From Salinivirgaceae bacterium (GTDB lineage: Bacteria > Bacteroidota > Bacteroidia > Bacteroidales > SZUA-534), in the NCBI GenBank assembly GCA_017650325.1, contig JAGCFC010000059.1:1-41244 (forward strand): DNA of 41,244 nt. Direction: 5' to 3'. A program made the position numbers and the translations under genes. This document shows positions 10,265 to 25,055 of the stretch, piece by piece; positions within the stretch are counted from its first letter, which is position 1; the number at the start of each line of letters is the position of its first letter. The notes beneath the pieces are model-generated. The model saw nothing but the letters and a program-made list of their open reading frames with translations, was not told where the DNA came from and searched no databases.

Positions 10265-13200
10265 CTACCTTACAATCACAATCCGCCCGACTCCGCCAAC
10301 AAGTGCGCCAGCACTACCCGGCTCATTGCGCGTTGGGAACGGCTGACCATCGTAAGAAATGCGCGCCTTGTAGAAATAGACACCAGCCGGCAGCAAAGCG
10401 CCATTGGCACCCGTGCCGCTCCACTCAGACGACTTGTTCAAACCGAAATGCAAATCGCCAAAATCGGCCATTGTGATGGTCTTGACAATCTTCCCCACCG
10501 GATTATAAATGTCGACACGAAGTTCGTCAGGCAACTGAGAACCTGTTAGTTGGAATACGAATCGCGTTGAAGCGCCAAACGGATTCGGGAATGCGAAAAC
10601 ATCGGAAACTGTATTGGCGGCAACCACACGGAACGAAATTATATAATCGTCGCTGCCCGACTCGTTGCCCGAAGCATCATGGGCGCGGACACGAAGTTGA
10701 TAGGTTCCGTCATCCAAACTCATTTGTAATGAGAGTCTTGCGATGTTGTTTTCTGAAGTACCAGGAGTGAACGACACTTCGCTATTGCCTGCAAGTTCAA
10801 TGCGATGTTCAATGCCCGTAACAGCCGGAGTCAGATAAACGGCTATTGAATTTGTGTCATCTATGGTCATGAATTGGTTGGCATCGGCCACACAGACTGT
10901 AATAATCGGATGCGACGACACAATATCGCCATCCTTAATGTGCCGCCCGTCGAACGTAACATCCATGAGCGGATTACCAACATCGCGCAAAACATGGAAC
11001 TGTTTCTGTATAAAGTTGTTGAAATGCGTCAATTCCATTTGGTCATACTCTTGCGAGCCTGGCTTAATCGGATTTAATTCTGCATAGAAAATGTTGTCGG
11101 CATCAAGCCCCACGGTATTAAACGCAACATTATCAACCACATGCCCGTTGGGTTTCAAAGCCGCTAACCGTTTGTATCCAATATCAACAATCCGGTTAGT
11201 TGCTGTCTGCAGCCAGTAATGCACCAAAACACTGTCGGATGGCTGTTTCCCAACATTTTCATAAGCAACTGTGACTCTTACTGATTCGCCTTCGTTAACG
11301 GTGTCGGAGACGAAACTCCAGCCGCGGTTCGGGTTAACCGCCAAATCGGTGTACGGGGTGTAAAGCACTCGCCACATCCGCAATTGCGACGGCACATGGC
11401 TGCTATCGTCTTTTGTGAAAAACTGCAGTTTCAATTGCCCGAAGCGTTTCGAGTCGATGCCGGAAAGGTCGGCGGTGCTGCTGGTTACAGAGTCAATCAG
11501 AACGCTCTGAATGCCGTTAGCGCCCACTCCCATCACCCTGACAAACGACTCGCCGTGAACAGTGTCGCTCGCCCACTCAAGCCCCGTCCATTGTTTCGCG
11601 GGACCAATCAGCGGGCTTGTTATGGTTCCGAAATTGTAGTTGTTGTGCAGAGTTCGATGAAAATCAATCTGGTCATTGGCCGATGCGCCTATGACCTCCT
11701 CTGCCTCGCCAGGGTAGCCTTTGTGAGTGAAAAATATGTATGGCACAGAACTGTTCACATTGCGTATCCGTGTGGCCCCCCAACGCTCAAACGCGCTGTA
11801 AGCCCGCTCCGGCCACTGTTGGAACCGTCCCGACATGAACGAATAAATCATTATGTAGTTGCCGTTTGGCACGACATTTTCGACCATACTGATTAGCGAG
11901 TCAAGGCCGGCATCGAGATTGTTTAAATAGAAAATGAAATACAGTTCGTAGGCCGCCGATGAGCAATGCGGATAGTTGGAATGACCAAAGCGTCCACGGT
12001 CGGACTGCCACGGCACCAGATTGAACGAGTCAATTACAACCATGAGCAGGGCATTCGCCGCACCACACGACGACTGAGCGCTATAACCGTCCATGTCGAA
12101 ACTGATTTTCATAAAGTTACTCGAATTGGGTGAGCCGATATTATGGCAACGCAAAGTTCGCGCGGCACTCGCAAAACTGAACGAGCGGCTTTCGCCATCG
12201 GGTTCGATATGGGCAAAAACGTCATCATCAATCTGCTCAAAATGTGACTGTTCCCACCCTGCAAGTCCGTCACGCACAACAAACGAATTCGGCTGATTGT
12301 AATCGTTGCCCGTATCGCCTTTAACCCGCCAGAAGTGAACCATATCTTTTCCGATTACATTCGACGGACTCCACTCAACAACTCCGCCGCCATGCTCCTT
12401 GCGCTTCGTCTGCAATTTCGGACTGTTGAATTGTTCTGTTGTATCCATCTGGAACTCACTTGAATATCCCGAAACTGCGACACCCGAAGCCGATGCTTTA
12501 AGCGCATCAGGAACCGCGTCGGTAAGGCAATAGTTGTATGGCCACACCGGCGTCACATCGACCGCCTGCACGTAGGTTGTAACCTCAACAGAGTTATTGT
12601 CCTCGTTCAATTCTTCGATCTGTTCCATTGCGTCTAGTTTTATAGAAAAACGATTGACGCCAGAAGCGATTGTTCGATCCATGGGCAGACGGAAACGCAA
12701 CGTATCTCTGAATTTGAGACCATTGAGTTGTTGAGTGTACAGCGATGTTGTACCATCGGGGAAAGTGTGCAGCAAATCAACCTCAAAATCAGACGTTATG
12801 GCACGGCTGACATTGCGCAGAACCACATTAACAGTAAACGAATCGATGGCTGTGGTCAGCAACGACGGTGAAAACCACACATCGGAATTCGAAATTTGCA
12901 AATCAGGTAAAGATTTACAATTCAATACAATACAAGGATCACCATGCAACACCATCTGCTGAATGGTCCCGTTGGTGAGCCGGTTGTTGCTACCGGCCAT
13001 AGCCGCTTGCGATATTCTCATCGATTTGCCAATCGGCTCAGCATATGAGTATTTGGCAATTTGCTTGTAAAAGTTCGACGAGAATTTGTCAAGATAGTAC
13101 GGCACACCTTCGTTGACCATGGCTATCAAACCAATGGCACCCTTTTTGTCGGCCAGCACCCACTCCTCGCTCACCGATGACTGCCATGCTCCATAGATGT

Positions 13201-15112
13201 TGCCCGTGTAGCACGAATTTGAAATTATCAGCGGATATTTTCCTTCGTTGTTATAGTACGACGGCACATCGATATCCTGGTCAAAACCGCCGTAACCAGA
13301 GCCGTGCCCGAAGAACGTCATCAGGCTGACTCCGCCGTTGATGAGCATCCGCACGCTATCGTTTTTCGATGTCGAAATCGGATCCGATGTCGATTTGTAG
13401 AACGAAGTGACGGTGCCACCGAACAGAGTATCCTCAATAATACTCTTGTAATCAGCCATATATCGTTTTATTTCATCTTGTTCACGTTTAGTCTTGCCGC
13501 CTACAAAATGCAGAACACGCTTCATCCATTCGCTCTGCTCGTTCTGCTCAAAAGCCTTCACCTTGCTCAGATATTTTTCGATATCGCTTTCGCGCAAAGC
13601 CGACAAACGTCCTGTGGCCAATAGCGGCCCATGACCGGAGCCTCCAATGTAGGCCGAAAGCAGCGCATCCGATGCCGGAACGCCCATTGTCGGAACAAGG
13701 CAGTTGGCGTAACCTGTGGCATTATGGCGCATATCGCTGACCACCACGCCTTTACCTATCAGGAACAAATACTGCGGCTTAACGTTCCACTTGGCCACCA
13801 CATACTCAATAAAATGACGAATGGCCATGGGGTGCTTGCTGATACCATAGCCGAACTGATTATAAAGTTCCTCAACATCAACAATATAAGCGTTCCGATA
13901 GTCGGCATATTCTTTGGCTTTCTCCATCAGCGATGTATGCGACACAATCAGAACCCGCTTGCCGCCAACCGCATGATTTGTGAACGGCGAGTGCGATATG
14001 CGGCCAACCTTGAGCAGCGACTTGCCTCTCGCCACCACAAGTCTGACTGTGTCGGAATGCGATGGAATGAGCGCCGTGGCCTTGCCGCCATCAACCAAAA
14101 GACCGATACGCAAATTGCGTGTAACATCGTACAACACAGCGCTTTCATCAAGCTCCATACCTGCGATGGTTATGCTTGAATCGGCAACTGCGGGCGGCAT
14201 GACGAAAACCTGCTGCCTACGGTCTTTGAACGTGAAATCGGATGGATACTCTATCTCGATGAACGACACCCGCGAATAGTCGGTTTTGGCCTCGATATTG
14301 TCGATGCTCGAAAACGTGAACTTGTTTTGTTGCTGCAAGTTAGCCGCATCAATCACCTTATTGTATTTTACGGTGTGCAAGCCATAGAAAATTGTGTCGA
14401 ACTCAAAGCCCGGCCCCTCTATCTTAATATGGTGGCCCTGCGACGAATAGGTGGCCAAAGCCAGCCGTATTTTAGCCTTTCCGCCGACATTGGCACCAGG
14501 TGTTGGCACCGTTTTTGCTAACTGACGCCCCAGCGACAGCGCAGAACCATCGAACCAACCTTCGGCCTCGGTAAACCGACAATCCTCCTCGCCCCCCAAA
14601 TATGTTGCCACAAACTGGCACACTGTGTCGATTATGCAGTGCTCTGCCTGGCTGTGATTTGCAGCATCTGTTGAGCTGCATTTGGTATGGCGCAAGTTCG
14701 AAAATTTGTTGTTCCATGTCAGGAAAACGGCCGCTGTGTCGGTTATAAGGCTGTAATGCGGATTGGTCTGACTCTCGGCACTTTCGTACATCTCCTTATC
14801 GAACCATCCATTGTTGCCTTCGGCAAAAAACTCGATAAAATTCAGCAAACCAGTCTGTTCGCCATCGATATGGCAAGCAATCGGCACACCGTTCTGATAT
14901 AGTTGAATGTTCTGCGGATTGAAACTCCCGACAGGCACTCCGGCGGCCTCGAGCTGACTGCGGCTGACACGGTAAACTCCCGTCTGCGGAATGTCTAACC
15001 TATAATAATCTTGAGAAAAATTTATCCAATCGTTTGTAAACTTCTGAGCATCAGCGTTTATTGCCGCCGTTGCGGTAACAACTGTAAGCAATATGCCGAA
15101 TAATCGCCTCAT
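10265..15112 (-). CDS. Large C25-family (gingipain/PorU-like) cysteine peptidase with T9SS/FlgD-like C-terminus
   Basis: 1615 residues with a signal peptide (MRRLFGILLTVVTATAAINA). An N-terminal region (about 25-380) of beta-rich domains precedes the C25 caspase-like fold. The catalytic pair is His603 in FFGHGSGYGG and Cys634 in ISNSCYTG, with DPCIVLN closing the domain. A long C-terminal half holds CARDB/Ig-like domains (for example SFTVNVVLRNVSRAI and VRVTVAYENVGKQPSDSVLV) and ends in a FlgD/Por-like module (FAFPNPFGASTRF, LPAGVYFYKARI). PorU of P. gingivalis, the T9SS sortase that cleaves cargo C-terminal signals, is about 1160 residues; this is the longer type found in other Bacteroidota and could be either a sortase paralogue or a secreted peptidase. 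Its promoter and first 118 codons are duplicated at 16303-16780. Higher GC than the cluster upstream. Confidence 0.85.
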   Translation of the reverse strand: MRRLFGILLTVVTATAAINADAQKFTNDWINFSQDYYRLDIPQTGVYRVSRSQLEAAGVPVGSFNPQNIQLYQNGVPIACHIDGEQTGLLNFIEFFAEGNNGWFDKEMYESAESQTNPHYSLITDTAAVFLTWNNKFSNLRHTKCSSTDAANHSQAEHCIIDTVCQFVATYLGGEEDCRFTEAEGWFDGSALSLGRQLAKTVPTPGANVGGKAKIRLALATYSSQGHHIKIEGPGFEFDTIFYGLHTVKYNKVIDAANLQQQNKFTFSSIDNIEAKTDYSRVSFIEIEYPSDFTFKDRRQQVFVMPPAVADSSITIAGMELDESAVLYDVTRNLRIGLLVDGGKATALIPSHSDTVRLVVARGKSLLKVGRISHSPFTNHAVGGKRVLIVSHTSLMEKAKEYADYRNAYIVDVEELYNQFGYGISKHPMAIRHFIEYVVAKWNVKPQYLFLIGKGVVVSDMRHNATGYANCLVPTMGVPASDALLSAYIGGSGHGPLLATGRLSALRESDIEKYLSKVKAFEQNEQSEWMKRVLHFVGGKTKREQDEIKRYMADYKSIIEDTLFGGTVTSFYKSTSDPISTSKNDSVRMLINGGVSLMTFFGHGSGYGGFDQDIDVPSYYNNEGKYPLIISNSCYTGNIYGAWQSSVSEEWVLADKKGAIGLIAMVNEGVPYYLDKFSSNFYKQIAKYSYAEPIGKSMRISQAAMAGSNNRLTNGTIQQMVLHGDPCIVLNCKSLPDLQISNSDVWFSPSLLTTAIDSFTVNVVLRNVSRAITSDFEVDLLHTFPDGTTSLYTQQLNGLKFRDTLRFRLPMDRTIASGVNRFSIKLDAMEQIEELNEDNNSVEVTTYVQAVDVTPVWPYNYCLTDAVPDALKASASGVAVSGYSSEFQMDTTEQFNSPKLQTKRKEHGGGVVEWSPSNVIGKDMVHFWRVKGDTGNDYNQPNSFVVRDGLAGWEQSHFEQIDDDVFAHIEPDGESRSFSFASAARTLRCHNIGSPNSSNFMKISFDMDGYSAQSSCGAANALLMVVIDSFNLVPWQSDRGRFGHSNYPHCSSAAYELYFIFYLNNLDAGLDSLISMVENVVPNGNYIMIYSFMSGRFQQWPERAYSAFERWGATRIRNVNSSVPYIFFTHKGYPGEAEEVIGASANDQIDFHRTLHNNYNFGTITSPLIGPAKQWTGLEWASDTVHGESFVRVMGVGANGIQSVLIDSVTSSTADLSGIDSKRFGQLKLQFFTKDDSSHVPSQLRMWRVLYTPYTDLAVNPNRGWSFVSDTVNEGESVRVTVAYENVGKQPSDSVLVHYWLQTATNRIVDIGYKRLAALKPNGHVVDNVAFNTVGLDADNIFYAELNPIKPGSQEYDQMELTHFNNFIQKQFHVLRDVGNPLMDVTFDGRHIKDGDIVSSHPIITVCVADANQFMTIDDTNSIAVYLTPAVTGIEHRIELAGNSEVSFTPGTSENNIARLSLQMSLDDGTYQLRVRAHDASGNESGSDDYIISFRVVAANTVSDVFAFPNPFGASTRFVFQLTGSQLPDELRVDIYNPVGKIVKTITMADFGDLHFGLNKSSEWSGTGANGALLPAGVYFYKARISYDGQPFPTRNEPGSAGALVGGVGRIVIVR

Positions 15113-15218
15113 AGCCCAAACACCTAAAAACGAACAAATTTAAGCATATAACGCTGCAGTGGTATTGTTTTTTGGCGAATTGACAAGGCAATGGGGCGAA
15201 TGACGGGGAAAATACACG
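14760..15218. repeat. Long direct repeat, copy 1 (5' end of the C25 gene and its promoter)
   Basis: Matches 16322-16780 at a constant offset of 1562 bases with no gap. By eye there are nine differences in 459 bases: five in the coding part (14771, 14900, 14957, 14960, 15047) and four upstream of the ATG (15176 and 15204-15207). It covers codons 1-118 plus 106 bases of leader. Identity stops abruptly at both ends, and the 1103 bases between the copies hold two lipoprotein genes. Confidence 0.97.
15135..15142 (-). promoter_or_regulatory. Candidate -7 box of the C25 gene
   Basis: On the minus strand this reads TAAATTTG, an exact TAnnTTTG match, 23 bases before the ATG. No clear -33 TTTG at the usual distance. 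The same box is preserved in the duplicated copy at 16697-16704. Confidence 0.4.
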
Positions 15219-15255
15219 GGGCTTAATGCATAAATAAAAAAATTTTTTACACCCA

Positions 15256-15675
15256 CTATTTCAACACCTTTCTACCTATAATTGTAATTATTGAACCTTC
15301 ATGTCTATGTTTATACTCTTCACTTATTAAAAGACTGTCATTTCTTAATTTCCCCTGAGCCCTGACTTCCGAATCCCAATAATCACACAAAGAGATTTCT
15401 CCGTTGGTTTCAACCTTTATATGCCCTTTCTCTGAATCGAAATAATAATAACTGCCAGGAATGGATTTGAAATACAACATAGAATCATCCACCATTCCGA
15501 CTTCAATTGTGTCTCTACTCATAGTGTGCATGTCTATGCCTAAATCAGCTCTATGATAACACTCGTCTATTGCGCATGAATAATTCCACACAAAACATTC
15601 CCTATAATCTCTTTCATCCTCCTTGCAACTTGAAAACAGCAAGCTTATTAACATTACAATCAATATCTTTTTCAT
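15256..15675 (-). CDS. Small lipoprotein, paralogue of the one at 19662-20081
   Basis: 139 residues. ATG 15675 gives a clean lipoprotein signal, MKKILIVMLISLLFSSC (Cys17), followed by KEDERDYREC. The frame is open further upstream into the preceding gene, but that extension is not plausible. The mature part is short and beta-rich (DTIEVGMVDDSMLYF, YYYFDSEKGHIKV, EVRAQGKL) and ends IIGRKVLK. By eye about 78 percent of residues match the paralogue at 19662-20081, including the start, the end and the four-base spacing from the upstream gene (TAGAAAAATG), although the upstream genes differ. No family was recognised. It is probably anchored in the outer membrane. This is the last gene of the two-gene cassette between the direct repeats. 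Confidence 0.8.
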   Translation of the reverse strand: MKKILIVMLISLLFSSCKEDERDYRECFVWNYSCAIDECYHRADLGIDMHTMSRDTIEVGMVDDSMLYFKSIPGSYYYFDSEKGHIKVETNGEISLCDYWDSEVRAQGKLRNDSLLISEEYKHRHEGSIITIIGRKVLK

Positions 15676-15679
15676 TTTT

Positions 15680-16240
15680 CTATTCCTCCTGTCCTGCAAA
15701 TATTGCCTTGCCATTGGTCTTACAATATGCGGTCTTAACAATGGATACAGTGTGGTGGTAATCGTGTTGATAAGTATAATGAGGCTCCATCAACGGCAAA
15801 ATCCAACCATAATTTACACTTGTGTCTGTTTCAAATTTAACTGCAAGATATTCATCTGACACAGGATTAGAGTCTCGCCAATAATTATTTTCACTTTCCC
15901 AATGTATTGTATCACATATTATATCTCCGGAGTGCATAATAAAGCCACACAATCCTCCAATTGTGATTTTTGGGGAGAGCGGAACACAAAGCACACTTTC
16001 CCACCCCGAACGTTGTTTTAAACATATCATTACATCATCCACTTTGTCGTTGTTAATATCTATGCTTACACCAAGTTCCACCATTTTACTATCGCTCAGC
16101 CGAGTTCCACGAACATCATAAAAATCAAGAACAAAATCATCACCATACTCCTTTACAATGAAGTCTGACTCTACGTTCTCATCCTTTTCACAACTTGTAA
16201 GCAACAAGCCTACAAGAGCAACTAATAACAACTTTTTCAT
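15680..16240 (-). CDS. Orphan lipoprotein sharing leader and signal peptide with the FISUMP lipoprotein
   Basis: 186 residues with a lipobox (MKKLLLVALVGLLLTSC, Cys17) and an acidic linker. The segment SIDINNDKVDDVMICLKQ looks like an FG-GAP or EF-hand-like loop (D-x-N-x-D-x-x-D), as seen in extracellular repeat proteins. The rest (FIMHSGDIICDTIHWES, YGWILPLMEPHYTY) matches nothing I know. The first ~20 codons and about 55 bases of leader are nearly the same as those of the gene at 17685-18437, while the mature proteins are unrelated. It lies four bases upstream of the next lipoprotein gene, so both are one transcript. The body is AT-rich compared with the C25 gene. Function unknown. Confidence 0.75.
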   Translation of the reverse strand: MKKLLLVALVGLLLTSCEKDENVESDFIVKEYGDDFVLDFYDVRGTRLSDSKMVELGVSIDINNDKVDDVMICLKQRSGWESVLCVPLSPKITIGGLCGFIMHSGDIICDTIHWESENNYWRDSNPVSDEYLAVKFETDTSVNYGWILPLMEPHYTYQHDYHHTVSIVKTAYCKTNGKAIFAGQEE

Positions 16241-16302
16241 ACCTTATAACTTGGAAACATATACTGATATACAATTGTCATCCGCAACCTCAAATTTTTC
16301 TT
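16183..16302. repeat. Shared leader/signal-peptide segment, copy 2 of 2
   Basis: Partner of 18380-18495. The minus strand reads TATATGTTTC within both leaders, a near match to the TAnnTTTG -7 box (last base differs), so the repeated segment probably carries a promoter. Confidence 0.65.
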
Positions 16303-16674
16303 CTAGATACCAGTCTGCTTTGGATTGGTCTGGCTCTCGGCACTTTCGTACATCTCCTTATCGAACCATCCATTGTTGCCTTCGGCAAAAAACTCGATAA
16401 AATTCAGCAAACCAGTCTGTTCGCCATCGATATGGCAAGCAATCGGCACACCGTTCTGATAAAGTTGAATGTTCTGCGGATTGAAACTCCCGACAGGCAC
16501 TCCGGCGGCCTCGAGCTGGCTACGGCTGACACGGTAAACTCCCGTCTGCGGAATGTCTAACCTATAATAATCTTGAGAAAAATTTATCCAATCGTTTGTA
16601 AACTTCTGGGCATCAGCGTTTATTGCCGCCGTTGCGGTAACAACTGTAAGCAATATGCCGAATAATCGCCTCAT
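16303..16674 (-). pseudogene. Truncated duplicate of the C25 peptidase gene (first 118 codons)
   Basis: The frame encodes the signal peptide and the first 118 residues of the 1615-aa C25 protein with no amino-acid change, then diverges after SQTNP into five residues (KQTGI) and stops. The copied 5' region includes the -7 box TAAATTTG, so the fragment could be transcribed and exported as a 123-residue product. It cannot be a peptidase: the catalytic His and Cys lie about 500 residues further on. The five base differences in the coding part are all third-position and silent. Possible origins are capture of the gene start during cassette insertion, relic of a second full-length allele, or an assembly join of two strains. 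I call it a pseudogene fragment; a decoy function is not excluded. Confidence 0.85.
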
Positions 16675-16780
16675 AGCCCAAACACCTAAAAACGAACAAA
16701 TTTAAGCATATAACGCTGCAGTGGTATTGTTTTTTGGTGAATTGACAAGGCAATGGGGCGAATGAATGAGAAAATACACG
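16322..16780. repeat. Long direct repeat, copy 2
   Basis: Partner of 14760-15218. The left boundary falls at GGATTGGTCTG, preceded by unrelated bases. The right boundary lies after AATACACG, beyond which the two sequences differ completely. Boundaries carry no obvious insertion-sequence ends, target duplications or integrase gene. Confidence 0.97.
16697..16704 (-). promoter_or_regulatory. Duplicated -7 box in front of the C25 fragment
   Basis: Reads TAAATTTG on the minus strand, identical to the box at 15135-15142. The fragment therefore keeps the same putative start signals as the intact gene. Confidence 0.35.
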
Positions 16781-16876
16781 TTGTTTAAAGCAGAAAAAGC
16801 AATGGCAAATTCAAAGTTTGACATTAAGCAAACATTAAGGAATCATTAAGGGAAGCTATAGCGATTCCACAATGAC

Positions 16877-16906
16877 AAAAAAGCAGGCAGCCAAAAGACT
16901 ACCTGC
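16877..16906 (-). terminator. Rho-independent terminator after the 246-aa lipoprotein gene
   Basis: On the minus strand a 10-base stem GCAGGTAGTC / GGCTGCCTGC (two G-U pairs) with a TTTT loop precedes six T. It lies 18 bases after the stop of the gene at 16925-17665 and would separate the lipoprotein cluster from the duplicated C25 fragment. Confidence 0.8.
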
Positions 16907-16924
16907 GGAGCATTTAAATCTCAA

Positions 16925-17665
16925 CTATTCTGCTGTATACAAAATATTTCCATACGGAATTTCATATACCAGCTTAGCGCGCTCATAATAGCGTAGCAAA
17001 CTGCGGAAACCGCCTGTGATACCATTCTTTTTGCCAATTTCCAAATCCTCGTTCAGTCCGCCAATGCCCTCAATCCATACTGCGGAACTGTATTTGAGCG
17101 TTTTATCGTCGCTCGATTTTGCATATTTGCTTGACAGATAGAAATATTTCCTTTGCGAATTGTCGAGCATTGTTCGGGTAATTATAGAATCGACAACCAT
17201 ATAGCCGGTGGAATCAGCTATCCGCTTCGATTGGAACGTGTCGCCGGCGCTTAGGTTATAATTGTAATAAACCTTTTTGTCCCATACAACACAACCAGCG
17301 CTATCATACATATATCCTTCAGGTTTCCACTCTTTTATCATTCCGTGCTGATACATTTTGGCATGTTCGATTTTCAAACATTTTCTATCGTTGATTGTAG
17401 TATCAATCCCCCGATATACATACGCCGCAAACAAGTTCACATCTTCTTCTCCCCAAAACCATAACTTATCGTTAGGGAAAAGCTTTGCCACCGAATCGAA
17501 ACGTATTGGCGCCAGTTGGTAGTTAAACTCTAAATAAAGATTTGCCGTGTCGACGGTTGGCATTGTGTCGTTTTCTGGTGTTGGCAGAGGCTCTTCGTTT
17601 TCGTTTTTGTCGCAAGCCGCAAAAGCCATAGCCACAACGCACATCAGGATTATTGATTTTTTCAT
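16925..17665 (-). CDS. Orphan lipoprotein
   Basis: 246 residues. Signal peptide MKKSIILMCVVAMAFAAC with lipid-attachment Cys18, then a Glu/Pro/Asn linker (DKNENEEPLPTPENDTMPTV). The mature domain contains WFWGEEDVNLFAAYVYRGI, KCLKIEHAKMY, YNYNLSAGDTF and a final IPYGNILYTAE. The repeated pattern of short beta segments and the GDTF turn resemble the hypothetical lipoproteins often found with T9SS or FISUMP proteins, but no named family can be assigned. It lies 19 bases downstream of the FISUMP lipoprotein gene and is closed by a good terminator, so the two are likely cotranscribed. Function unknown. Confidence 0.8.
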   Translation of the reverse strand: MKKSIILMCVVAMAFAACDKNENEEPLPTPENDTMPTVDTANLYLEFNYQLAPIRFDSVAKLFPNDKLWFWGEEDVNLFAAYVYRGIDTTINDRKCLKIEHAKMYQHGMIKEWKPEGYMYDSAGCVVWDKKVYYNYNLSAGDTFQSKRIADSTGYMVVDSIITRTMLDNSQRKYFYLSSKYAKSSDDKTLKYSSAVWIEGIGGLNEDLEIGKKNGITGGFRSLLRYYERAKLVYEIPYGNILYTAE

Positions 17666-17684
17666 TGTTTGAAACGTTTTGTGT

Positions 17685-18437
17685 TTACTGTTTTATTTTA
17701 ATGCATCTGATAGGAATCATCCAAGAATAATTGTTGGAATGCCATGTAGACGCTCCTCCTGGCTGAATGCATGCTGCAGTTAAATAAGTGCCGTATTCGC
17801 TTTTGTATATATCTGTCGCCCAATATGATACACCATACGAATATGGAAACCATGGTACTGCGGTAAAGCCAGAAATGTTTAGAAAAGGACTATCATTGTC
17901 GATTTGCCAGTGAGTATTACCTTTTTCTCTTAATTTGTAACTTGCTATAGAATCGCGGTTGTGGTCGCTCAAGTAGTTTATTAGTTTTTCCCAGTCAGCA
18001 GCGGTTGGCACTCGCCAGCCTTCGGGCGCAATGTTCCGGTTGTCAGTGGCAACATCCCATGTGTAACTGAAACCATACGTGGCAATCATTTCAAGGTCGG
18101 CTGCGATATAATATGTGGTGTTTTGCAAAGCCAAATTCGGGAAGTATGTGTTCTGTTCTATACTGTCGCCTTCGCGATACCAAGTATAATCATCTTGTGA
18201 CAAGTTTTCCCCGTTTTGATAATGCGTAACCCTTAAATTCTCAGCCATCCATTCTTGTTCGCCGATTCGTATTGTTTTATACTCGTTACCATCAATGTCG
18301 GTAACTGTGCCGTATTCTTTTTGGGGATTGAATTGTGCGGTTGTACGTCCGTTAAATGGGCTTTGCGGCTCAGAGTCGTCTTTTTTGCAACTTGCAAGCA
18401 ACAGACCTACAAGGACAACCAATAATAACTTTTTCAT
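17685..18437 (-). CDS. FISUMP-domain lipoprotein (Fibrobacter succinogenes major paralogous domain)
   Basis: 250 residues. Lipobox MKKLLLVVLVGLLLASC (Cys17). The mature part fits the FISUMP domain: YGTVTDIDGNEYKTIRIG, EQEWMAENLRVTHYQNGENL, the central APEGWRVPTAADWEKLINYL and a final PIRCIK. Such proteins are surface lipoproteins or T9SS-linked secreted proteins of unknown activity, widespread as paralogues in gut and rumen Bacteroidota and Fibrobacteres; the fold is related to the C-type lectin-like formylglycine-generating enzyme group. The leader and signal-peptide DNA is nearly shared with the gene at 15680-16240. The ATG choice follows the lipobox. Confidence 0.88.
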   Translation of the reverse strand: MKKLLLVVLVGLLLASCKKDDSEPQSPFNGRTTAQFNPQKEYGTVTDIDGNEYKTIRIGEQEWMAENLRVTHYQNGENLSQDDYTWYREGDSIEQNTYFPNLALQNTTYYIAADLEMIATYGFSYTWDVATDNRNIAPEGWRVPTAADWEKLINYLSDHNRDSIASYKLREKGNTHWQIDNDSPFLNISGFTAVPWFPYSYGVSYWATDIYKSEYGTYLTAACIQPGGASTWHSNNYSWMIPIRCIKIKQ

Positions 18438-18495
18438 ACCTTAAAACTTAGAAACATATACTGAAATACAATTGCCCACCGCAACCTTAAAAGCA
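18380..18495. repeat. Shared leader/signal-peptide segment, copy 1 of 2
   Basis: About 115 bases covering the first ~20 codons and ~55 bases before the ATG resemble 16183-16302 closely (for example GAAACATATACTGA and ATACAATTG are in both). Similarity ends inside each gene after the lipobox. See the finding on mosaic 5' ends. Confidence 0.7.
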
Positions 18496-18549
18496 TGTCC
18501 GTTTTTTATACTCCAATTCCGACAATGTAAATAACAAATGGCCATTACT

Positions 18550-19656
18550 TTAATTTTTATAGTGCTCAAATTCAGGAGTTGGAATTAACGACAATTCGCT
18601 ACCAAGCGGAACTGAAAATTCGCCCTGTAATTCAATAAAATCAGTTGCACGTAAAGTGTATTTACCATTTTTGGGTACAGAACTGTTCTTTAATGTAATT
18701 GATTTCTTTACTGCATAATTAAATTTAGCAAAATCAAAATTTGATTTGTTTACTACCGTTTTACAGTCCATTTTCATATTATAATACCTAATATAATCTA
18801 TCTGATATGAATATGGCCAGTTAGTGTTTTCTGATACATTATTTTCGTCATCGCCAAACTTACCATCCTCAATGCCCATTGTAACATACATAATCATAGA
18901 TTCAAATTTTCCACAATACTTGCTTTCTGTTCCTCTAATTAACTTATCATCATAATAAAAGTTAATGTAATCGGGTGTCCATTCACATGCGAAAGTGTGA
19001 AATTTGTCGAAATCAACATAGAAATCATAATATGTCTTATTATCACCCGACCGCAATATCCATCTGTTGCCATTATCATGATACTCATCATTAGCCACCA
19101 TAGTATAATCCCTATAATATGCATTGCACGTATGGATATTCCTATATCCGTTAAATTCGTATATATCTATCTCACTCCAACTGGTATTATCTCCAGTTGT
19201 TTGACCATAAAGCCAAAAACTCGGGTTTATTCCTTTGAACTTATAGGCGTTTGGGAACCTGCAACGAATTTCAAAATATCCATATTTAAACCTATTCCTT
19301 TTTGAAAACAAAGCACCCTCAGAATAATATGCGTTGTAATATTTGTATTTATTGGAATCCCAATCCATTTCTTTACAAGTACATTTTTCCTTGATTGCCT
19401 TTAATGTAAGCACTCCATTCGAAAGCGAGAAATGAGAAGCTTGAGGCGTTTCGTCATACCTATATGCTGTTTTTTTGCCTTTGTCTTCACAAGTTCCCCA
19501 ATGATGAGTTGAACTCCATTTTTCTTGATTTATTGTCGTTCCATTGAATTCATCTGACAACGATTCATTCAATACCCAATTTTTGTCGTTGCTAGGATTT
19601 TGTGCACTTGTAAAAAGAGCCGTATTTACCAATATGCACAATAAATATTTTTTCAT
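18550..19656 (-). CDS. Glycoside hydrolase family 16 enzyme, secreted
   Basis: 368 residues from ATG 19656; a GTG two codons upstream overlaps the stop of the previous gene. Signal peptide MKKYLLCILVNTALFTSAQ. The GH16 jelly-roll is marked by LSDEFNGTTINQEKW, YGYFEIRCRFP, and the active-site motif SEIDIYEFNG, with nucleophile Glu162, Asp164 and acid/base Glu167 all intact. GH16 enzymes cleave beta-1,3- or beta-1,4-glucans, laminarin, lichenan, agar or carrageenan; the subfamily cannot be fixed by eye. The last ~70 residues after the catalytic domain (from CKTVVNKSNF) form an extra module that ends without a clear sorting signal. It sits between lipoprotein genes and no SusCD pair is adjacent. 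Confidence 0.88.
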   Translation of the reverse strand: MKKYLLCILVNTALFTSAQNPSNDKNWVLNESLSDEFNGTTINQEKWSSTHHWGTCEDKGKKTAYRYDETPQASHFSLSNGVLTLKAIKEKCTCKEMDWDSNKYKYYNAYYSEGALFSKRNRFKYGYFEIRCRFPNAYKFKGINPSFWLYGQTTGDNTSWSEIDIYEFNGYRNIHTCNAYYRDYTMVANDEYHDNGNRWILRSGDNKTYYDFYVDFDKFHTFACEWTPDYINFYYDDKLIRGTESKYCGKFESMIMYVTMGIEDGKFGDDENNVSENTNWPYSYQIDYIRYYNMKMDCKTVVNKSNFDFAKFNYAVKKSITLKNSSVPKNGKYTLRATDFIELQGEFSVPLGSELSLIPTPEFEHYKN

Positions 19657-19661
19657 ATCCA

Positions 19662-20081
19662 CTATTTTAACACCTTTCTACCAATAATTGTAATTGTTGA
19701 GCATTCATGTCTATGCTTATACTCTTCACGTATTATAATACTATCATTATTTAATTTTCCTTGAGCCCGAACTTCCAAATCCCAATAATCATATAAAGAG
19801 ATTTCTCCATCGGCATCTACCTTTATATGTCCTTTCTCTGAATCGAAATAATAGTATCTGCCAGGAATAGATCTGAAATACAACATAGAATCATCAACTA
19901 TTCCAACTTCAATAGTATCTTTCCCCGTAGTGTGCTTATCTATGCCTAAATCATCTCTATGATAATATTCATCTATTGAGCAGGAATAAGTTCCCATAAA
20001 ACTTTCCCTATAATCCTTTTCATCTTCTTTGCAACTCGAAAACAGCAAACCTGTTAACACTACAAACAATATTTTTTTCAT
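19662..20081 (-). CDS. Small lipoprotein, paralogue of the one at 15256-15675
   Basis: 139 residues. MKKILFVVLTGLLFSSC (Cys17) followed by KEDEKDYRES. Same length and architecture as its paralogue, with about 30 substitutions. Conserved stretches include DTIEVG, VDDSMLYF, YYYFDSEKGHIKV and TIIGRKVLK. The upstream gene is the S74/T9SS protein, not the lipoprotein seen upstream of the other copy. The stop overlaps by one base a possible GTG start of the GH16 gene, so the two are tightly packed. No known family. Duplication and divergence inside one locus suggest a surface role under diversifying or locus-specific selection, but this is inference. Confidence 0.8.
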   Translation of the reverse strand: MKKILFVVLTGLLFSSCKEDEKDYRESFMGTYSCSIDEYYHRDDLGIDKHTTGKDTIEVGIVDDSMLYFRSIPGRYYYFDSEKGHIKVDADGEISLYDYWDLEVRAQGKLNNDSIIIREEYKHRHECSTITIIGRKVLK

Positions 20082-20085
20082 TTTT

Positions 20086-21126
20086 CTATTTCTCCGTAAT
20101 AATCATCCTCCTGCTATCTGCCTCAACCCCTCCAATAGCCAATGTGTATATATACATTCCCGCGCTTAACTCGTTGCCGCAGATAGTAACACTACCATTA
20201 CCTATTGCTGTTATCGGCTTAGTGAGCAAAAGATTGCCATTGAGCGAAAATACATAAATGCACGCATTTTCGGCATTCTCCGGCACAAAATATTTAATCA
20301 CGGTTTGTGTGCTGAACGGGTTGGGCGAGTTTTGGAAAAGAAATGCATTTGTGGTAATATCCTCTTTTTCAACTGTTCTTTCTATTTCAACATCCTCCTC
20401 AACTTCTTCTTCTCCGTTAGTTGCAGATGGAGCAACCATAAATTTTCGTCCACCATGCGGATTTTTAAACGAGTTGTTGTTTGAAGCGAGTTCTTTCTCG
20501 AGTTCCTTGATTTTCTCGCTTTGAGCAGAAACCGTATTCTGGAGTTCTTGCACCATCTCGACAAGGATAGGTATAAAGCCAATATAATCGATTGAATATT
20601 TGCCTGTTGAGTCATCTTTATATGTTAGTTCCGGATAGATTTTCTAAATATCTTGAGCCTTGAACCCGTAGTGTTCGTGATTGAATTTTGGGCGTTCCTT
20701 TTCGGGCAATCTGCCCATGAACTCTTTGGTAAAGTGATATTTATATGGTTTAATCTGTCTGAACTTGTCTTGCTCTTTATTCAACTTCTTGAAATCGCAC
20801 TTAAATGTCGAGTCGGAGTCGGTATAAGTTCGGTTCGCATGAATTGTCTGCACAAAAATTGTCCCCACACGTTTTTTATCTTTTCCCAGTTGCAAATACC
20901 AGTCTCGGTCCGGGTAAATACACGGGGATGAACATAATCCGGTTGCATCCATATAAACATCGGACCATTCATCAAATCTGATTTTACTCCAATTGTAATC
21001 AATATCTAACGCAAACTGCGGATTGGTTGTTCCAATACCTACGTAACCATTACTATTAACCTTGATTTGTGCGTTTGCACCCATTGCGCAGCAAATGGCT
21101 GCAATAATTAAAAATTGTTTTTTCAT
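20086..21126 (-). pseudogene. S74-like chaperone-domain protein with T9SS sorting signal, split by in-frame TAG
   Basis: Two open frames, 20644-21126 and 20086-20556, are in the same reading frame and together make one typical protein of about 346 codons. Order: signal peptide (MKKQFLIIAAICCAMGANA); VGIGTTNPQFALDI, the usual head of tail-fibre-like Bacteroidota proteins; S74-like region (TYTDSDSTFK, YGFKAQDI, then KIYPELTYKDDSTGKYSIDY, GFIPILVEMVQEL); a coiled coil (QNTVSAQSEKIKELEKELAS); linker; and a Por sorting domain (FLFQNSPNPFSTQT, then ELSAGMYIYTLAIGG). A TAG at 20644-20646 stands between AQDI and KIYPEL, where the family normally has Glu or Gln (AQEVEKVFPEL type). One substitution from GAG or CAG restores the gene. 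Truncated as read: no sorting signal, so not exported by T9SS. Confidence 0.85.
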
Positions 21127-21167
21127 AAAATGCTAAAATTTAAAGTTATACTTAAAAAGAAGATTTC

Positions 21168-21554
21168 TCATTTCACTGTAACATTGTTACTATAAACCAC
21201 AGTACTGCCACTGCTCACCACAATGGTATAGCAGCCGTTGCCGTAGTTGCGCAGGGTATAAACCAATGTGGCGCCAGCCGCGGCATTAGCGTTTACCACT
21301 TTGGTACCATTCCGGTAGATTTCAACTTTGCCGTCTTGGCTATTGCTTGGGAACGACACGTTTAGTGCTGTTGTAGTGGAATTGTAGGAGACTTTTGGTG
21401 TTGTATTTACACTAAGGCATTTGTGAGGTCTATGATGTCTGGCATCATGATTATTATTAGTTGTTTTATAAACAACACTCTTTGTTTGTGCAGATGCCTC
21501 AGCAATCACACCCGAAACTGCAATTAGAGCAGCCACCAGAAATACTTTTTTCAT
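21168..21554 (-). CDS. Small secreted Ig-like/beta-sandwich protein
   Basis: 128 residues from ATG 21554, which begins a signal peptide (MKKVFLVAALIAVSGVIAEA). The frame is open upstream into the palindromic repeats, but that extension is not protein-like. After a His/Asn-rich linker (NNNHDARHHRPHK), the mature domain of about 80 residues has Ig-like or DUF3244-like strands (ALNVSFPSNSQDGKVEIYRN, then YTIVVSSGSTVVYSNNVTVK). No Por CTD is separate from this domain, though the domain itself resembles one. It starts the minus-strand cluster, with the S74 pseudogene 41 bases downstream. Function unknown. Confidence 0.7.
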   Translation of the reverse strand: MKKVFLVAALIAVSGVIAEASAQTKSVVYKTTNNNHDARHHRPHKCLSVNTTPKVSYNSTTTALNVSFPSNSQDGKVEIYRNGTKVVNANAAAGATLVYTLRNYGNGCYTIVVSSGSTVVYSNNVTVK

Positions 21555-21618
21555 TTCAAAAAAATTTATGTTTTGCTGCGTTAAAGTTATGGGCCGTACT
21601 GCCCTCGGCGCAAGAGGT

Positions 21619-21635
21619 TGTTCCCGTCGGGAACA
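21619..21635. repeat. Palindrome, copy 1
   Basis: TGTTCCCGTCGGGAACA: perfect arms of seven bases around a three-base centre, 24 bases from the second copy. Confidence 0.8.
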
Positions 21636-21658
21636 TCTTATATGTTTGATTTTCAATA

Positions 21659-21677
21659 TTGTTCCCGTTGGGAACAA
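21659..21677. repeat. Palindrome, copy 2
   Basis: TTGTTCCCGTTGGGAACAA: arms of eight bases around GTT. Shares GTTCCCGTYGGGAAC with copy 1. It could be an operator pair or a REP-like element. Confidence 0.8.
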
Positions 21678-21864
21678 CTTCTCAGGGTATAAACAACAAC
21701 ACTAAGCCATTTGTTGCAATCATGTCTGATTGTGAGAAATTTTACTGATATTCAAATGTTTATGTTATTATTGGCGATTTGGCGCGATTTTGGGTTCTTG
21801 CATCAAAATTGTTGTTTTAGGTGTTTTTTCGGGTATGAAATGGCCTTTTATACAGCTGAAAAGC

Positions 21865-21872
21865 TAATTTTG
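21865..21872 (+). promoter_or_regulatory. Candidate -7 box of the TPR regulator
   Basis: TAATTTTG, an exact TAnnTTTG match 21 bases before ATG 21894. No convincing -33 element. Confidence 0.35.
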
Positions 21873-21893
21873 CATAAAAAAAGTGGCACTGAT

Positions 21894-23492
21894 ATGAAAA
21901 GAATGGGGGCTATAATTCTATTTATTTCAATGTTTTTTGCCGCCGCTTGCTCGAAAAAAAGCGAGGCATACCGGCAACTCGAACATATTGATTCTGTCTT
22001 ATTTGCCAATTTTCCCGATTCGGCAAAATCGTTGCTAAGAGGAATAGCACCCGAAACAGAAGCCGATAGTGCTTATTACAATATATTGAAAACACAAACC
22101 AATTATCTGCTTTACTCAACAGACTATGATTTCAGAGATATTGACTTTAGCATAAAATATTACCAGAAGCATTACAACGCGCAGAAGTTGTCGAATGCAT
22201 ATTATTATAAAGCAATGATTTATGTCGACCATGATTCGTTGACACAGGAAACAGTTCTGCTGTTGAAAGAAGCCGAGAAACTGTCGGAAGAAACCACAGA
22301 CAATAATCTTAAAAACAAAATATGCTCGGCACTTGCTTATTTAAATGGCGTTTTAGGGAATTATGGCGAATCGCTCAAATATGCTAAAAAAGAGTATTTC
22401 TATGCAAAAAAACTTAACAACAACAGAGATATCGCTTACGGATTGTTAAGACTTTCAACCAATTATGAAATAAGCGGCATGAAAGATAGTGCGGTATTTT
22501 GCATTAATGAGTGCAACAAGCTTGTCCAGTATATAAACAATGATGATAAGGCTTTTGTTTATACCCTATTAGGCGAAAGTTTTATAAGCACTGATGTCGA
22601 TTCTGCCCAGTATTACTTTGTCAGAGCGTTAAAGCACAAAAAAAGTTCAACAGCCTATCAAAATCTGATGGAGATATATTTCGCAAAAAACGACAGCACG
22701 GCAGCCAAACGTTACTGCGACTCGGCTCTAATGCTGGCTTGGACTAAACAGAAAATAGGTATTTATTCGCAACTCGCACAAAAATACTACGATGGCAACG
22801 ATATAGCTGATTTGAAGGCTGTTACCGATAAAATCATAAGCACTCACAATGATATTTTGGTTGAAGACCAAAATAAATTCTTCCTGGAAATGCAGCGTAA
22901 GTTTGATTTTGAGAAACAGCAAATAGTATATAACAGAAATGTAAGTGTCTGCTTTTTGGCTATCATAATTTTGTTCGCCATTTGTATAATTTTACATCTG
23001 CGGCGCAAACATGAGAAGCAGTTAACCATTCAAAAAGAATTGGAATGGGAGAATCGCAACTTACAGTTACTTAATGATTTGTGCGAAGCAAAACGCATAA
23101 TCACCGACCACGAACTGCACATTAGAGAACTTGAAACTGAAAATTCAAAACTTGCAGAATTATCCGACAATCAAGAATACCTAAACACCAAACGACATAT
23201 TTCGGAAGTGTTGGAAAGCGGGCGCAGCATCTACCACAAAATCGAAAACAACGAATGCATCTGTGATGATAAAGATTTATGGGTTCACTGCATATTCTAC
23301 TGCATGTATAATGTTGCAAATAAGGTGATGGTGGTTTTCGGCCATTATCGGAATCTTTCAATAGACGAGAAAATCTTTGTTATGGTTGATGAGGCTTTCT
23401 CCAAAGAAGACGATGAGGTAGCAAAAATACTCGACATCTCCCCCATAACCGTCCGCACCCGCCGCACAAAATTGAAATCGAAGTTATTGTAG
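21894..23492 (+). CDS. Membrane-anchored TPR protein with C-terminal LuxR-like HTH (signalling regulator)
   Basis: 532 residues from ATG 21894. The N-terminus MKRMGAIILFISMFFAAAC carries a lipobox (Cys19). Residues about 30-340 form TPR-like helical repeats (LANFPDSAKSLL-type, SLKYAKKEYFYAKKL, SAQYYFVRALKHK). A transmembrane helix (about 349-369, VCFLAIIILFAICIILHL) is followed by a cytoplasmic coiled coil and a terminal HTH (SIDEKIFVMVDEAF, EVAKILDISPITVRTRRTKL). This architecture, extracytoplasmic TPR sensor plus cytoplasmic DNA-binding tail, is common in Bacteroidales and usually controls nearby surface genes. It is divergent from the lipoprotein/T9SS cluster and separated from it by the palindromes, so it is a natural candidate regulator of that cluster. 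The ligand is unknown. Confidence 0.8.
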   Translation: MKRMGAIILFISMFFAAACSKKSEAYRQLEHIDSVLFANFPDSAKSLLRGIAPETEADSAYYNILKTQTNYLLYSTDYDFRDIDFSIKYYQKHYNAQKLSNAYYYKAMIYVDHDSLTQETVLLLKEAEKLSEETTDNNLKNKICSALAYLNGVLGNYGESLKYAKKEYFYAKKLNNNRDIAYGLLRLSTNYEISGMKDSAVFCINECNKLVQYINNDDKAFVYTLLGESFISTDVDSAQYYFVRALKHKKSSTAYQNLMEIYFAKNDSTAAKRYCDSALMLAWTKQKIGIYSQLAQKYYDGNDIADLKAVTDKIISTHNDILVEDQNKFFLEMQRKFDFEKQQIVYNRNVSVCFLAIIILFAICIILHLRRKHEKQLTIQKELEWENRNLQLLNDLCEAKRIITDHELHIRELETENSKLAELSDNQEYLNTKRHISEVLESGRSIYHKIENNECICDDKDLWVHCIFYCMYNVANKVMVVFGHYRNLSIDEKIFVMVDEAFSKEDDEVAKILDISPITVRTRRTKLKSKLL

Positions 23493-23508
23493 CCAGCCAT
23501 ATCTTTTC

Positions 23509-23599
23509 CACAAATAACCGAACAAAATCGCTACAAATAACCGAACAAAATCGTCACAAACAACCGAACAAAACCGTCACAAATAACCGAAAATTCACA
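23509..23599. repeat. Four tandem 23-bp iteron-like repeats
   Basis: Units begin at 23509, 23532, 23555 and 23578; each contains ACAAAYAACCGAA and the first three continue with CAAAAYCG. The fourth decays after CCGAA. The 23-base period is not a multiple of three and no frame uses it. The array lies just upstream of the -33 element of the DUF4143 gene. Confidence 0.9.
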
Positions 23600-23606
23600 A
23601 AACGCT

Positions 23607-23637
23607 TGCATAATTAAATAATAATCAATAGTTTTGT
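23607..23637 (+). promoter_or_regulatory. Promoter of the DUF4143 ATPase gene
   Basis: TTGC (23607-23610), 19-base spacer, TAGTTTTG (23630-23637): a good Bacteroidota promoter. It lies eight bases after the tandem repeats and 28 bases before the ATG, so a protein bound to the repeats would affect RNA polymerase. Confidence 0.55.
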
Positions 23638-23665
23638 TGCCAGCATTCAAAAGCAAGTTTTTTGT

Positions 23666-24943
23666 ATGAAAACCGACTATAAACAAAGAATTGCAGACAG
23701 ACTTTTGGCACGCAAATTAGCAGGCAAGGGTGCGGTATTGATTGAGGGTCCAAAGTGGTGCGGCAAGACAACCACTGCCAGACAACAAGCTGCAAGCATG
23801 CTTGACCTTGGCGACAGTGGCGTGCTGAAACAAAGCTTGCAAATGATGGAAATAAGCCCAAAAACGCTTTTGCAAGGTAATACTCCACGCCTGATTGACG
23901 AGTGGCAAACAATTCCGCCGCTGTGGGACTCGATACGAGGCGAGGTTGATATGAGGAGCGATTTCTCGCAATTCATTCTTACTGGCTCATCGGTGCTCCC
24001 AATGGCCGACGAAACCATACATAGCGGTACTGGGCGTTTCGCCACAATCAAAATGCGGCCAATGTCGCTTTTCGAGTCGGGCGATTCGTCGGGGAAAGTC
24101 AGCTTGCAGGAACTCTTCAACGGCAATTCGATAGAGCCAATCGAATGCAATACAAACCTCCGTCAGATTGCCTATCTCGTTTGCCGTGGTGGTTGGCCAA
24201 TGGCGACATTCCTTAAAGGCAATCTTGCGCTCGACCAGGCATTAGATTACGTTGATTCGGTGGTTGAGCGTGATATTCAGCGGGTTGATGGTGTGAGGCG
24301 CAGCCCCGAACGAGCGCGGCTGCTTTTGCGCTCATACGCCAGAAACATTTCACAACAGGTTTCTTACAGCACAATCAAGGCCGATATGCAGGCGAATGAT
24401 TCTCAAACACTTGACGAGGATACAGTGGCAGATTACATAAAGGCATTCAAAAAATTGTTTGTCATTGAAGACCTTGCCGCCTGGAATCCGAATCTTCGCA
24501 GCAAATCGGCCATCCGCACCAGCGACACTCGGCATTTTGTCGACCCGAGTATCGGAACCGCCGCCCTCGGCCTTGGCCCCGACGACCTTGTGAACGACCT
24601 TGAATCGTTTGGGCTGTTTTTCGAGGATATGGCAGTCCGTGATTTGCGTGTGTTTGCGGAAGCTCTCGATGGCAGGCTGTACCACTATCGCGACAGCTCA
24701 GGTCTTGAGTGCGACACCGTACTGCACCGCCGCAACGGCACGTATGCACTGATTGAGGTTAAACTTGGTGGCGAGAAACTGATTAATGATAGTGTGGCTG
24801 CGCTGAAAGAGCTATCCGAAACTATCGACACTACCCGTATGCCAAAGCCTTCGTTTATGATGGTGCTTACAGCCGTTGGTCAATATGCCTATCAGCGTCC
24901 CGATGGCATATTTGTGGTACCGATAAGTTGCATAAGAGACTAA
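23666..24943 (+). CDS. AAA-type ATPase with DUF4143 domain
   Basis: 425 residues. Walker A GPKWCGKTT (28-36), Walker B-like LIDEWQ (77-82) and a sensor segment FILTGSS place it in the AAA_14 group. The C-terminal part is DUF4143, with the region TVADYIKAFKKLFVIEDL acting as a winged-helix-like segment and FFEDMAVRDL before a PD-(D/E)xK-like core (ECDTVLH, then YALIEVKLGG). These ATPases are widely spread, often in many copies, and their cellular role is unclear; DNA binding or nuclease-like action has been suggested from the fold. No toxin or partner gene is adjacent. It is preceded by its own promoter and a repeat array that may be its binding site. The gene is GC-richer than the lipoprotein cluster. 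Confidence 0.9.
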   Translation: MKTDYKQRIADRLLARKLAGKGAVLIEGPKWCGKTTTARQQAASMLDLGDSGVLKQSLQMMEISPKTLLQGNTPRLIDEWQTIPPLWDSIRGEVDMRSDFSQFILTGSSVLPMADETIHSGTGRFATIKMRPMSLFESGDSSGKVSLQELFNGNSIEPIECNTNLRQIAYLVCRGGWPMATFLKGNLALDQALDYVDSVVERDIQRVDGVRRSPERARLLLRSYARNISQQVSYSTIKADMQANDSQTLDEDTVADYIKAFKKLFVIEDLAAWNPNLRSKSAIRTSDTRHFVDPSIGTAALGLGPDDLVNDLESFGLFFEDMAVRDLRVFAEALDGRLYHYRDSSGLECDTVLHRRNGTYALIEVKLGGEKLINDSVAALKELSETIDTTRMPKPSFMMVLTAVGQYAYQRPDGIFVVPISCIRD

Positions 24944-25023
24944 AAATGCCCAACAGGAAAGCTTCGTTATTGTACCACATTTTCCCTTCTGCCATTTCAA
25001 ACACCCTCAACCAAAAATTATGC

Positions 25024-25031
25024 TACATTTG
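25024..25031 (+). promoter_or_regulatory. Candidate -7 box of the phosphatidylserine synthase gene
   Basis: TACATTTG, an exact TAnnTTTG match 25 bases before ATG 25056. The -33 element is not clear. Confidence 0.4.
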
Positions 25032-25055
25032 CATCCGTTTTAAAACAGCTGAACA

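Follow-up and report, generated by a model that had tools for sequence, protein, structure and literature searches.

A duplicated porU2 start enclosing two predicted lipoprotein genes, probably left by additive recombination at an accessory hotspot in a Salinivirgaceae genome

The DNA analyzed here (the window) is a 41,244-nt stretch of contig JAGCFC010000059.1 from the Salinivirgaceae bacterium assembly GCA_017650325.1. It carries an intact porU2-like gene, encoding a C25 peptidase, and a second copy of the start of that gene lies upstream, with two predicted lipoprotein genes, here called A' and B', enclosed between the two copies. We think it likely, though with real room for doubt, that a single additive recombination, by one crossover with sister-strain DNA, produced both the repeat and the genes enclosed in it. 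The geometry of the repeat supports this explanation because it is the one expected from single-crossover integration of a circle that contains part of a gene. The duplicated start itself looks like a by-product of such an event and not like a dedicated cassette system.

Geometry and context of the duplicated start

The intact gene (10265–15112, minus strand) is, by family assignment, a PorU2-type C25 peptidase gene: its product matches NCBIfam NF052324 (E = 1.3e-210; 701.9 bits against a curated cut-off of 450) and Pfam Peptidase_C25, and its role as a type IX secretion sortase is predicted from the family name. Among solved structures there was no sequence match to PorU2 at E ≤ 0.001, and a literature search pairing PorU2 with type IX secretion found no paper.

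The duplication is a gap-free direct repeat of 475 nt (14760–15234 and 16322–16796, both on the minus strand) at an offset of 1562, with 97% identity. Six of its 14 mismatches fall in 14760–15203 (444 nt), and the remaining eight are within the last 31 nt. Length and identity together rule out a chance origin. An earlier note, made from the sequence alone, had described a 459-base repeat at this offset; the repeat is real and the offset exact, and only the length needed slight extension. Each copy runs from part of codon 118 through the signal peptide to the leader of the porU2-like gene and includes, by pattern match, a −7-like box TAAATTTG 30 nt ahead of the start codon. For the intact gene this predicted box lies at 15135–15142 (minus strand), where aligned relatives show TTAAATTTG or TTAACTTTG. 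The left copy is attached to the intact gene body. The right copy is stranded upstream as an open reading frame (ORF) of 123 codons (16303–16674, minus strand), as the note had reported, and matches positions 5–119 of the 879 in NF052324.

Also as previously described, exactly two genes, predicted to encode lipoproteins, occupy the DNA between the copies, both with lipobox-like signal peptides and both in the orientation of porU2. B' (15680–16240, minus strand; 186 aa, lipobox LLLTSC) is the first gene of this cassette, and A' (15256–15675, minus strand; 139 aa, lipobox LLFSSC) is the second. At junction J1, an approximate AT-rich boundary at 15226–15240, homology to the porU2 leader ends and the cassette begins; the repeat ends at 15234, and homology to an older paralog of A', region A, starts from 15226. 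At junction J2 (16321/16322) the cassette meets porU2 codon 118, and the identity between the copies begins at 16322/14760. We infer that J2 is an illegitimate joint or the scar of a circle. As in a Campbell-type integration, the shared segment is present in one full and one truncated copy in direct orientation.

To determine which start is the older one, the locus was compared across 11 genomes of the genus, including that of the window; none of the other ten (G001–G010) is a sister strain, as they belong to species other than that of the window. The window genome encodes the first 118 PorU2 residues twice, each of the ten relatives a single time (residues 9–118 in G006), and no second DNA copy of the start was found in the fetched stretches of these ten genomes. 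Relatives with a single 5' end and no cassette, for which the earlier note had proposed to look, are therefore all ten of the other genus members. Homology to the right copy continues to 16854–16861 in G009, G004 and G008, whereas homology to the left copy halts at 15204–15218 in the same three genomes; in the remaining seven, homology to both copies halts inside the repeat. An array of four 11-bp-spaced CATTAAG-like units (16822–16866, plus strand) has counterparts 169–199 nt before the porU2 ATG in five relatives (G009, G004, G001, G008 and G010), and in the window it precedes the stranded copy only. The stretches fetched from G002, G003, G005, G006 and G007 showed no such array. Because both the flank homology and the array sit on the stranded side, the stranded start is, on this comparison, the one in the ancestral context, and the leader of the intact gene abuts other DNA. 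This agrees with the proposal that the insert brought a gene start with it. The accompanying proposal, that the target stays functional, holds for the reading frame and the core leader, which are kept, but not for the array, which is now 1.7 kb from the intact start.

The array units (CATTAAGGNAA/CATATAGGNAA, three or four per array) also match elsewhere in 8 of the 11 genus genomes, with no such matches in G003, G005 and G007; the reversed pattern gave 0–1 matches per genome as a control. Since it is present at other genomic places, the array is more likely to be a regulatory or other dispersed element than an insertion signal. A terminator-like hairpin (16883–16906, minus strand; consensus match only) lies 3' of the neighboring gene at 16925–17665.

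Origin of the second start

Five codons within the repeat differ between the two copies, and all five differences are synonymous; a sixth difference affects codon 118, where the differing base is one position outside the repeat. The chance of a random change being synonymous here is 0.21–0.27, so five out of five would arise with P = 0.0004–0.0014 if both copies had drifted, or with P = 0.004–0.010 if one had drifted and the other been constrained. This suggests that, while the copies diverged, each belonged to a working gene, in two different strains. Given that none of the coding differences in the repeat changes an amino acid, the divergence of the second start probably predates its import.

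The incoming sister-strain DNA probably held a porU2 5' end next to the B'–A' pair. It would have been circularized, at about 1,562 nt (codon 118 to leader, A', B'), with J2 as its joint; alternatively, a linear fragment with one homologous end and illegitimate joining at J2 would give the same product. A single crossover in the shared segment would then yield the order gene body, full start, A', B', truncated start and old flank. In this way porU2 would keep a working start, and presumably its expression, while the old start would be left stranded upstream. The porU2 5' end would serve as mere homology for ordinary recombination, and loss of the cassette by RecA-type recombination via the repeat would restore one intact start.

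The same arrangement could also have come about within the genome, by tandem duplication of the porU2 start and neighboring lipoprotein genes followed by deletions, with no incoming DNA. In favor of this, the interval contains paralogs, in the same orientation, of both A' and the 5' end of B'. A' has an 85% identical DNA paralog 4.4 kb away (region A, 19634–20095, minus strand), and the 5' end of B' (16179–16294) resembles 18376–18491 (minus strand; 84.5% over 116 nt), the 5' end of a FISUMP lipoprotein gene, B (17685–18437; Pfam Fib_succ_major). In addition, another genome, G009, carries an old repeat of a whole gene with other genes in between. However, synonymous divergence (dS) is 0.55 between A and A' compared with 0.086 between the two porU2 starts; the event that formed the repeat therefore did not also copy A' from A. 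The gene order A'–B' beside porU2 also differs from that of the neighboring paralogs, and the coding differences are all synonymous despite one copy being a fragment. We regard duplication within the genome as unlikely.

An assembly or strain-mixture artefact would imply either that two strain versions were joined or that a cassette-free chromosome coexisted with a separate cassette molecule. The assembly is fragmented (3.22 Mb in 244 contigs; completeness 92%, contamination 4.36%), the two copies differ as strain alleles do, and they share exact stretches of up to 128 nt, which is longer than many assembly word lengths. The same sequence would be obtained from a mixed sample in which the cassette was on a separate circle and the chromosome lacked it. 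Against this, the window contains zero N, and J2 lies outside the repeat and so cannot arise from path errors within the repeat. In addition, a single path from body through repeat, cassette and repeat to flank uses all four joints. An artefact is thus judged to be quite improbable, and single-crossover import remains the preferred account.

The source of the cassette was sought in several collections. A' has a 96% identical relative in metagenomes (P0002, whose cluster comprises four contigs), and B' has relatives P0010–P0017. A phage or plasmid origin found no backing: there was no match in phages or plasmids, and none was confirmed in viral contigs. A source in a neighboring species was likewise set aside for both genes. 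For A', the other 19 family genomes contain no homologue of the same length (a 37-residue match in G001 only); for B', full-length relatives among 392 other genomes of the order occur only in G016, with partial ones in G045 and G248, and the same held among 59 other genomes searched. In that genome, from another genus, three B' homologues stand in tandem with 49–65% identity (L074, G016:C17:22194–23820). Like some other genes in the interval, the cassette is AT-rich (35.9% G+C versus 49.4% in porU2).

Neither A' nor B' matched a Pfam or PHROGs family; NCBIfam gave matches below cut-off for A' only and none for B'. The structure model of A' (predicted local distance difference test, pLDDT, 79.5) is a barrel that weakly resembles lipocalins and fatty-acid-binding proteins. 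That fold assignment was not used, given a best Foldseek E value of 2.2e-3 and TM-scores of about 0.5 or less, and the model had no PDB match at E ≤ 0.001. The B' model is weak (pLDDT 67.9) and gave no usable structural match. Between the older paralogs A and B lies a gene for a family 16 glycoside hydrolase with a signal peptide (18550–19656; Pfam Glyco_hydro_16, with a kappa-carrageenase model below cut-off).

The interval between porU2 and pssA

The next conserved gene upstream of porU2 is a divergent CDP-alcohol phosphatidyltransferase gene (25056–25796, Pfam), which we take to be pssA. The interval between the two start codons (15113–25055 in the window) is bounded on both sides in 8 of the 11 genus genomes. 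It is empty in four of them (208 nt in G003, 203 nt in G005, 208 nt in G007 and 148 nt in G006) and filled in the other four (9.9 kb in the window, 13.4 kb in G009, 11.6 kb in G004 and 4.4 kb in G001). In G002, G008 and G010, other genes lie next to porU2, and the fetched stretch stops before pssA. The empty interval may be the ancestral state; in G016, pssA directly adjoins porU2, and the other seven family loci have no pssA within the 1.5-kb flank examined.

The contents of the filled intervals are mostly unrelated among genomes. Exceptions are homologues of the window genes at 21168 and 21756 in G009 and G004, a homologue of the gene at 20086 in G008, an Abi_2 gene common to G009 and G004, and another gene common to G001 and G010. 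Pfam domains in the other intervals include TonB-dependent receptor, DUF4249, C10 peptidase, RHS-repeat, alpha-2-macroglobulin, BspA-type leucine-rich repeat and type IX sorting domains. Pfam named no integrase or transposase in the 12 window interval ORFs of at least 100 aa (the window outside the interval was partly scanned) or in 23 ORFs, two of them cut at the stretch edge, from six other genomes with filled intervals; PHROGs named none for 10 of the 12 window ORFs. The earlier observation that no integrase or insertion sequence is visible therefore extends to these searches of the interval, and a composite transposon or site-specific element is not indicated for A', B' or the other tested interval ORFs, none of which matched a transposase or integrase. 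A tRNA or other RNA gene as an attachment site was also discarded, with zero hits in the window both from the tRNA scan and from Rfam at gathering scores. With conserved flanking genes, variable content (4/8 empty, 4/8 filled) and no mobility gene named, the porU2–pssA interval is, judged by gene content, an accessory hotspot.

The filled interval of G009 (L033, L068) itself contains a small secreted-protein gene with its leader twice around other genes (oriented 16370–16776 and 19693–20212). The outer copy is frame-broken and about 74% identical, and the arrangement may stem from an earlier event of similar type.

To assess recombination in this flanking gene, 12 genome pairs were submitted to a change-point test covering the first 1,200 nt of porU2, with 300 shuffles each. 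In five pairs the observed value was reached in 0 of 300 shuffles. For G003/G007 the breakpoint lies after nt 370, with 5.4% difference before and 36.0% after, and 206 of 208 intergenic bases are equal; for G001/G006 it lies at nt 75, with 54.9% difference before and 2.7% after. The other three breakpoints are at nt 610 (G003/G005), nt 66 (G010/G006) and nt 415 (G001/G010). Among the other seven pairs, G003/G008 gave 1/300 and the rest 24–178/300. Because 5 of the 12 pairs gave 0/300, the porU2 5' end has, according to this test, recombined in at least two clades; the three pairs that include the window are not among the five. In G006 a different signal-peptide stretch adjoins the empty interval. 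Taken together, the pattern fits exchange via ordinary homologous recombination in the flanking gene. Beyond its 5' end, porU2 of L038 (G003) and L036 (G007) is mosaic, with 97–98% identity at both ends and 55–91% across the middle 4 kb (250-nt bins).

A dedicated system, in which lipoprotein cassettes carry the porU2 start as an attachment site and insert there recurrently, could draw on the variability of the interval, on the different signal-peptide stretch beside the empty interval of G006 and on the abundance of lipobox-like motifs inside the interval. By a crude motif, and in genomes that are related to one another, these occur in 14 of 35 ORFs of at least 100 aa inside the interval versus 14 of 152 outside it, including a likely false match in a TonB-dependent receptor. 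The duplicated start, however, is present in 1 of 11 genus genomes with no other in the fetched stretches, and no recombinase gene was found in the window interval ORFs or in the 23 ORFs of the six other filled intervals. A dedicated system is very improbable. The earlier note had proposed that the locus accepts cassettes by regenerating the start of the peptidase gene; because no other genus genome (0/10) has a duplicated start, regeneration is not the usual route of gene uptake at this locus.

Weight of the evidence and known recombination systems

Several observations count against import by a single crossover with sister-strain DNA. The argument for import is carried by just five coding differences, and at these sites the ancestral base, counted by eye over nine aligned relatives, is mixed. 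Support for the stranded versus the left copy was 9 to 0 at codon 22, 3 to 5 at codon 51, 5 to 2 at codon 52, 5 to 1 at codon 71 and 2 to 7 at codon 114, so that three sites favor the stranded copy and two the left copy. A crossover inside the repeat may have rendered both copies mosaic, with too few sites to serve as proof. The old flank aligns by BLAST in only 3 of the 10 relatives. The window porU2 had no significant breakpoint against G009, G004 or G002 (31, 33 and 32 of 300 shuffles, respectively). Searches of phages, plasmids, and family and order genomes turned up no donor in which a porU2 start adjoins A'–B'. Querying a protein database with the stranded ORF likewise revealed no second case, although fragments may hide in full-protein clusters. 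A candidate second stranded start, P0001, was rejected: it lies on a 1,085-nt contig, continues into normal PorU2 sequence past codon 118 and is probably an end-cut normal gene.

Four described systems bear comparison. In Helicobacter pylori, insertion with long target duplication is credited to Nobusato et al. 2000 (PMC1643837, PMC3031569, PMC4978471). There, as here, the insert sits between long direct repeats whose sequence is single-copy in relatives, and there is no short target duplication of the transposon type. In the window the insert is bounded by direct repeats of the target (475 nt, 97%) and is absent from relatives, each with one intact target copy (10/10). Differences are that the H. 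pylori inserts frequently, though not obligatorily, carry restriction-modification genes, whereas the genes here are predicted lipoprotein genes, and that the repeat here is a gene start whose copies differ at 6 of 444 nt (14760–15203). By Pfam, PHROGs and NCBIfam, restriction-modification genes are not among A' and B'.

The second system is Escherichia coli, in which a duplication polymerase chain reaction product was obtained from 56 of 60 selected clones, and 14 that were sequenced had duplications of 109–950 bp (PMC3240628). These were attributed to single crossing-over with a shortened circle, alongside homology-facilitated illegitimate recombination (PMC3240628). Single crossing-over of partly degraded, recircularized DNA resembles the present case in that part of the target gene is duplicated around the incoming DNA (109–950 bp there, 475 nt here), but it was seen in laboratory plasmid conjugation, whereas the event proposed here is deduced from one genome. 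The window does not have the form of classic homology-facilitated illegitimate recombination, as the target is duplicated and recipient DNA is not deleted.

Third, hotspots without recognizable mobile elements are described as diversifying via homologous recombination in flanking core genes (PMC5635113). Like them, the porU2–pssA interval has conserved neighbors, high turnover, no mobility gene among the ORFs searched and a flanking gene that has undergone recombination. That report proposes double recombination at the flanks, in contrast to the event here, which would be additive, with the old start left in place. Finally, at type VI secretion loci of Vibrio cholerae, gene remnants are proposed to have been displaced beside a homologous anchor (PMC5361080). 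In both cases a conserved incoming stretch is the proposed anchor and the old part is stranded alongside, but in V. cholerae it is immunity genes and 3' ends that are stranded, and here it is a 5' end.

The earlier note had suggested a new type of accessory site. Because the pattern matches known additive recombination, by long target duplication or single crossing-over, through which bacteria can acquire accessory genes with no dedicated enzyme, the site is not of a new type: the known kinds, a mobile-element-free recombination hotspot and additive insertion, apply, and the claim of novelty is unsupported.

A broader possibility, which we consider doubtful at best, is that the porU2 start is a standing homology handle for integrase-free exchange of surface genes, with lipoprotein genes traveling together with a fresh promoter and signal peptide as circles of about 1.6 kb that hop by ordinary recombination. 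If this were true, each exchange would swap or renew the start of a secretion sortase gene. On the preferred explanation, additive recombination would have left a clear footprint here, in an accessory hotspot of an uncultured member of the Bacteroidota and next to the gene for a predicted secretion sortase. Surface-lipoprotein exchange in these bacteria would thereby become traceable, with no new mechanism needed.

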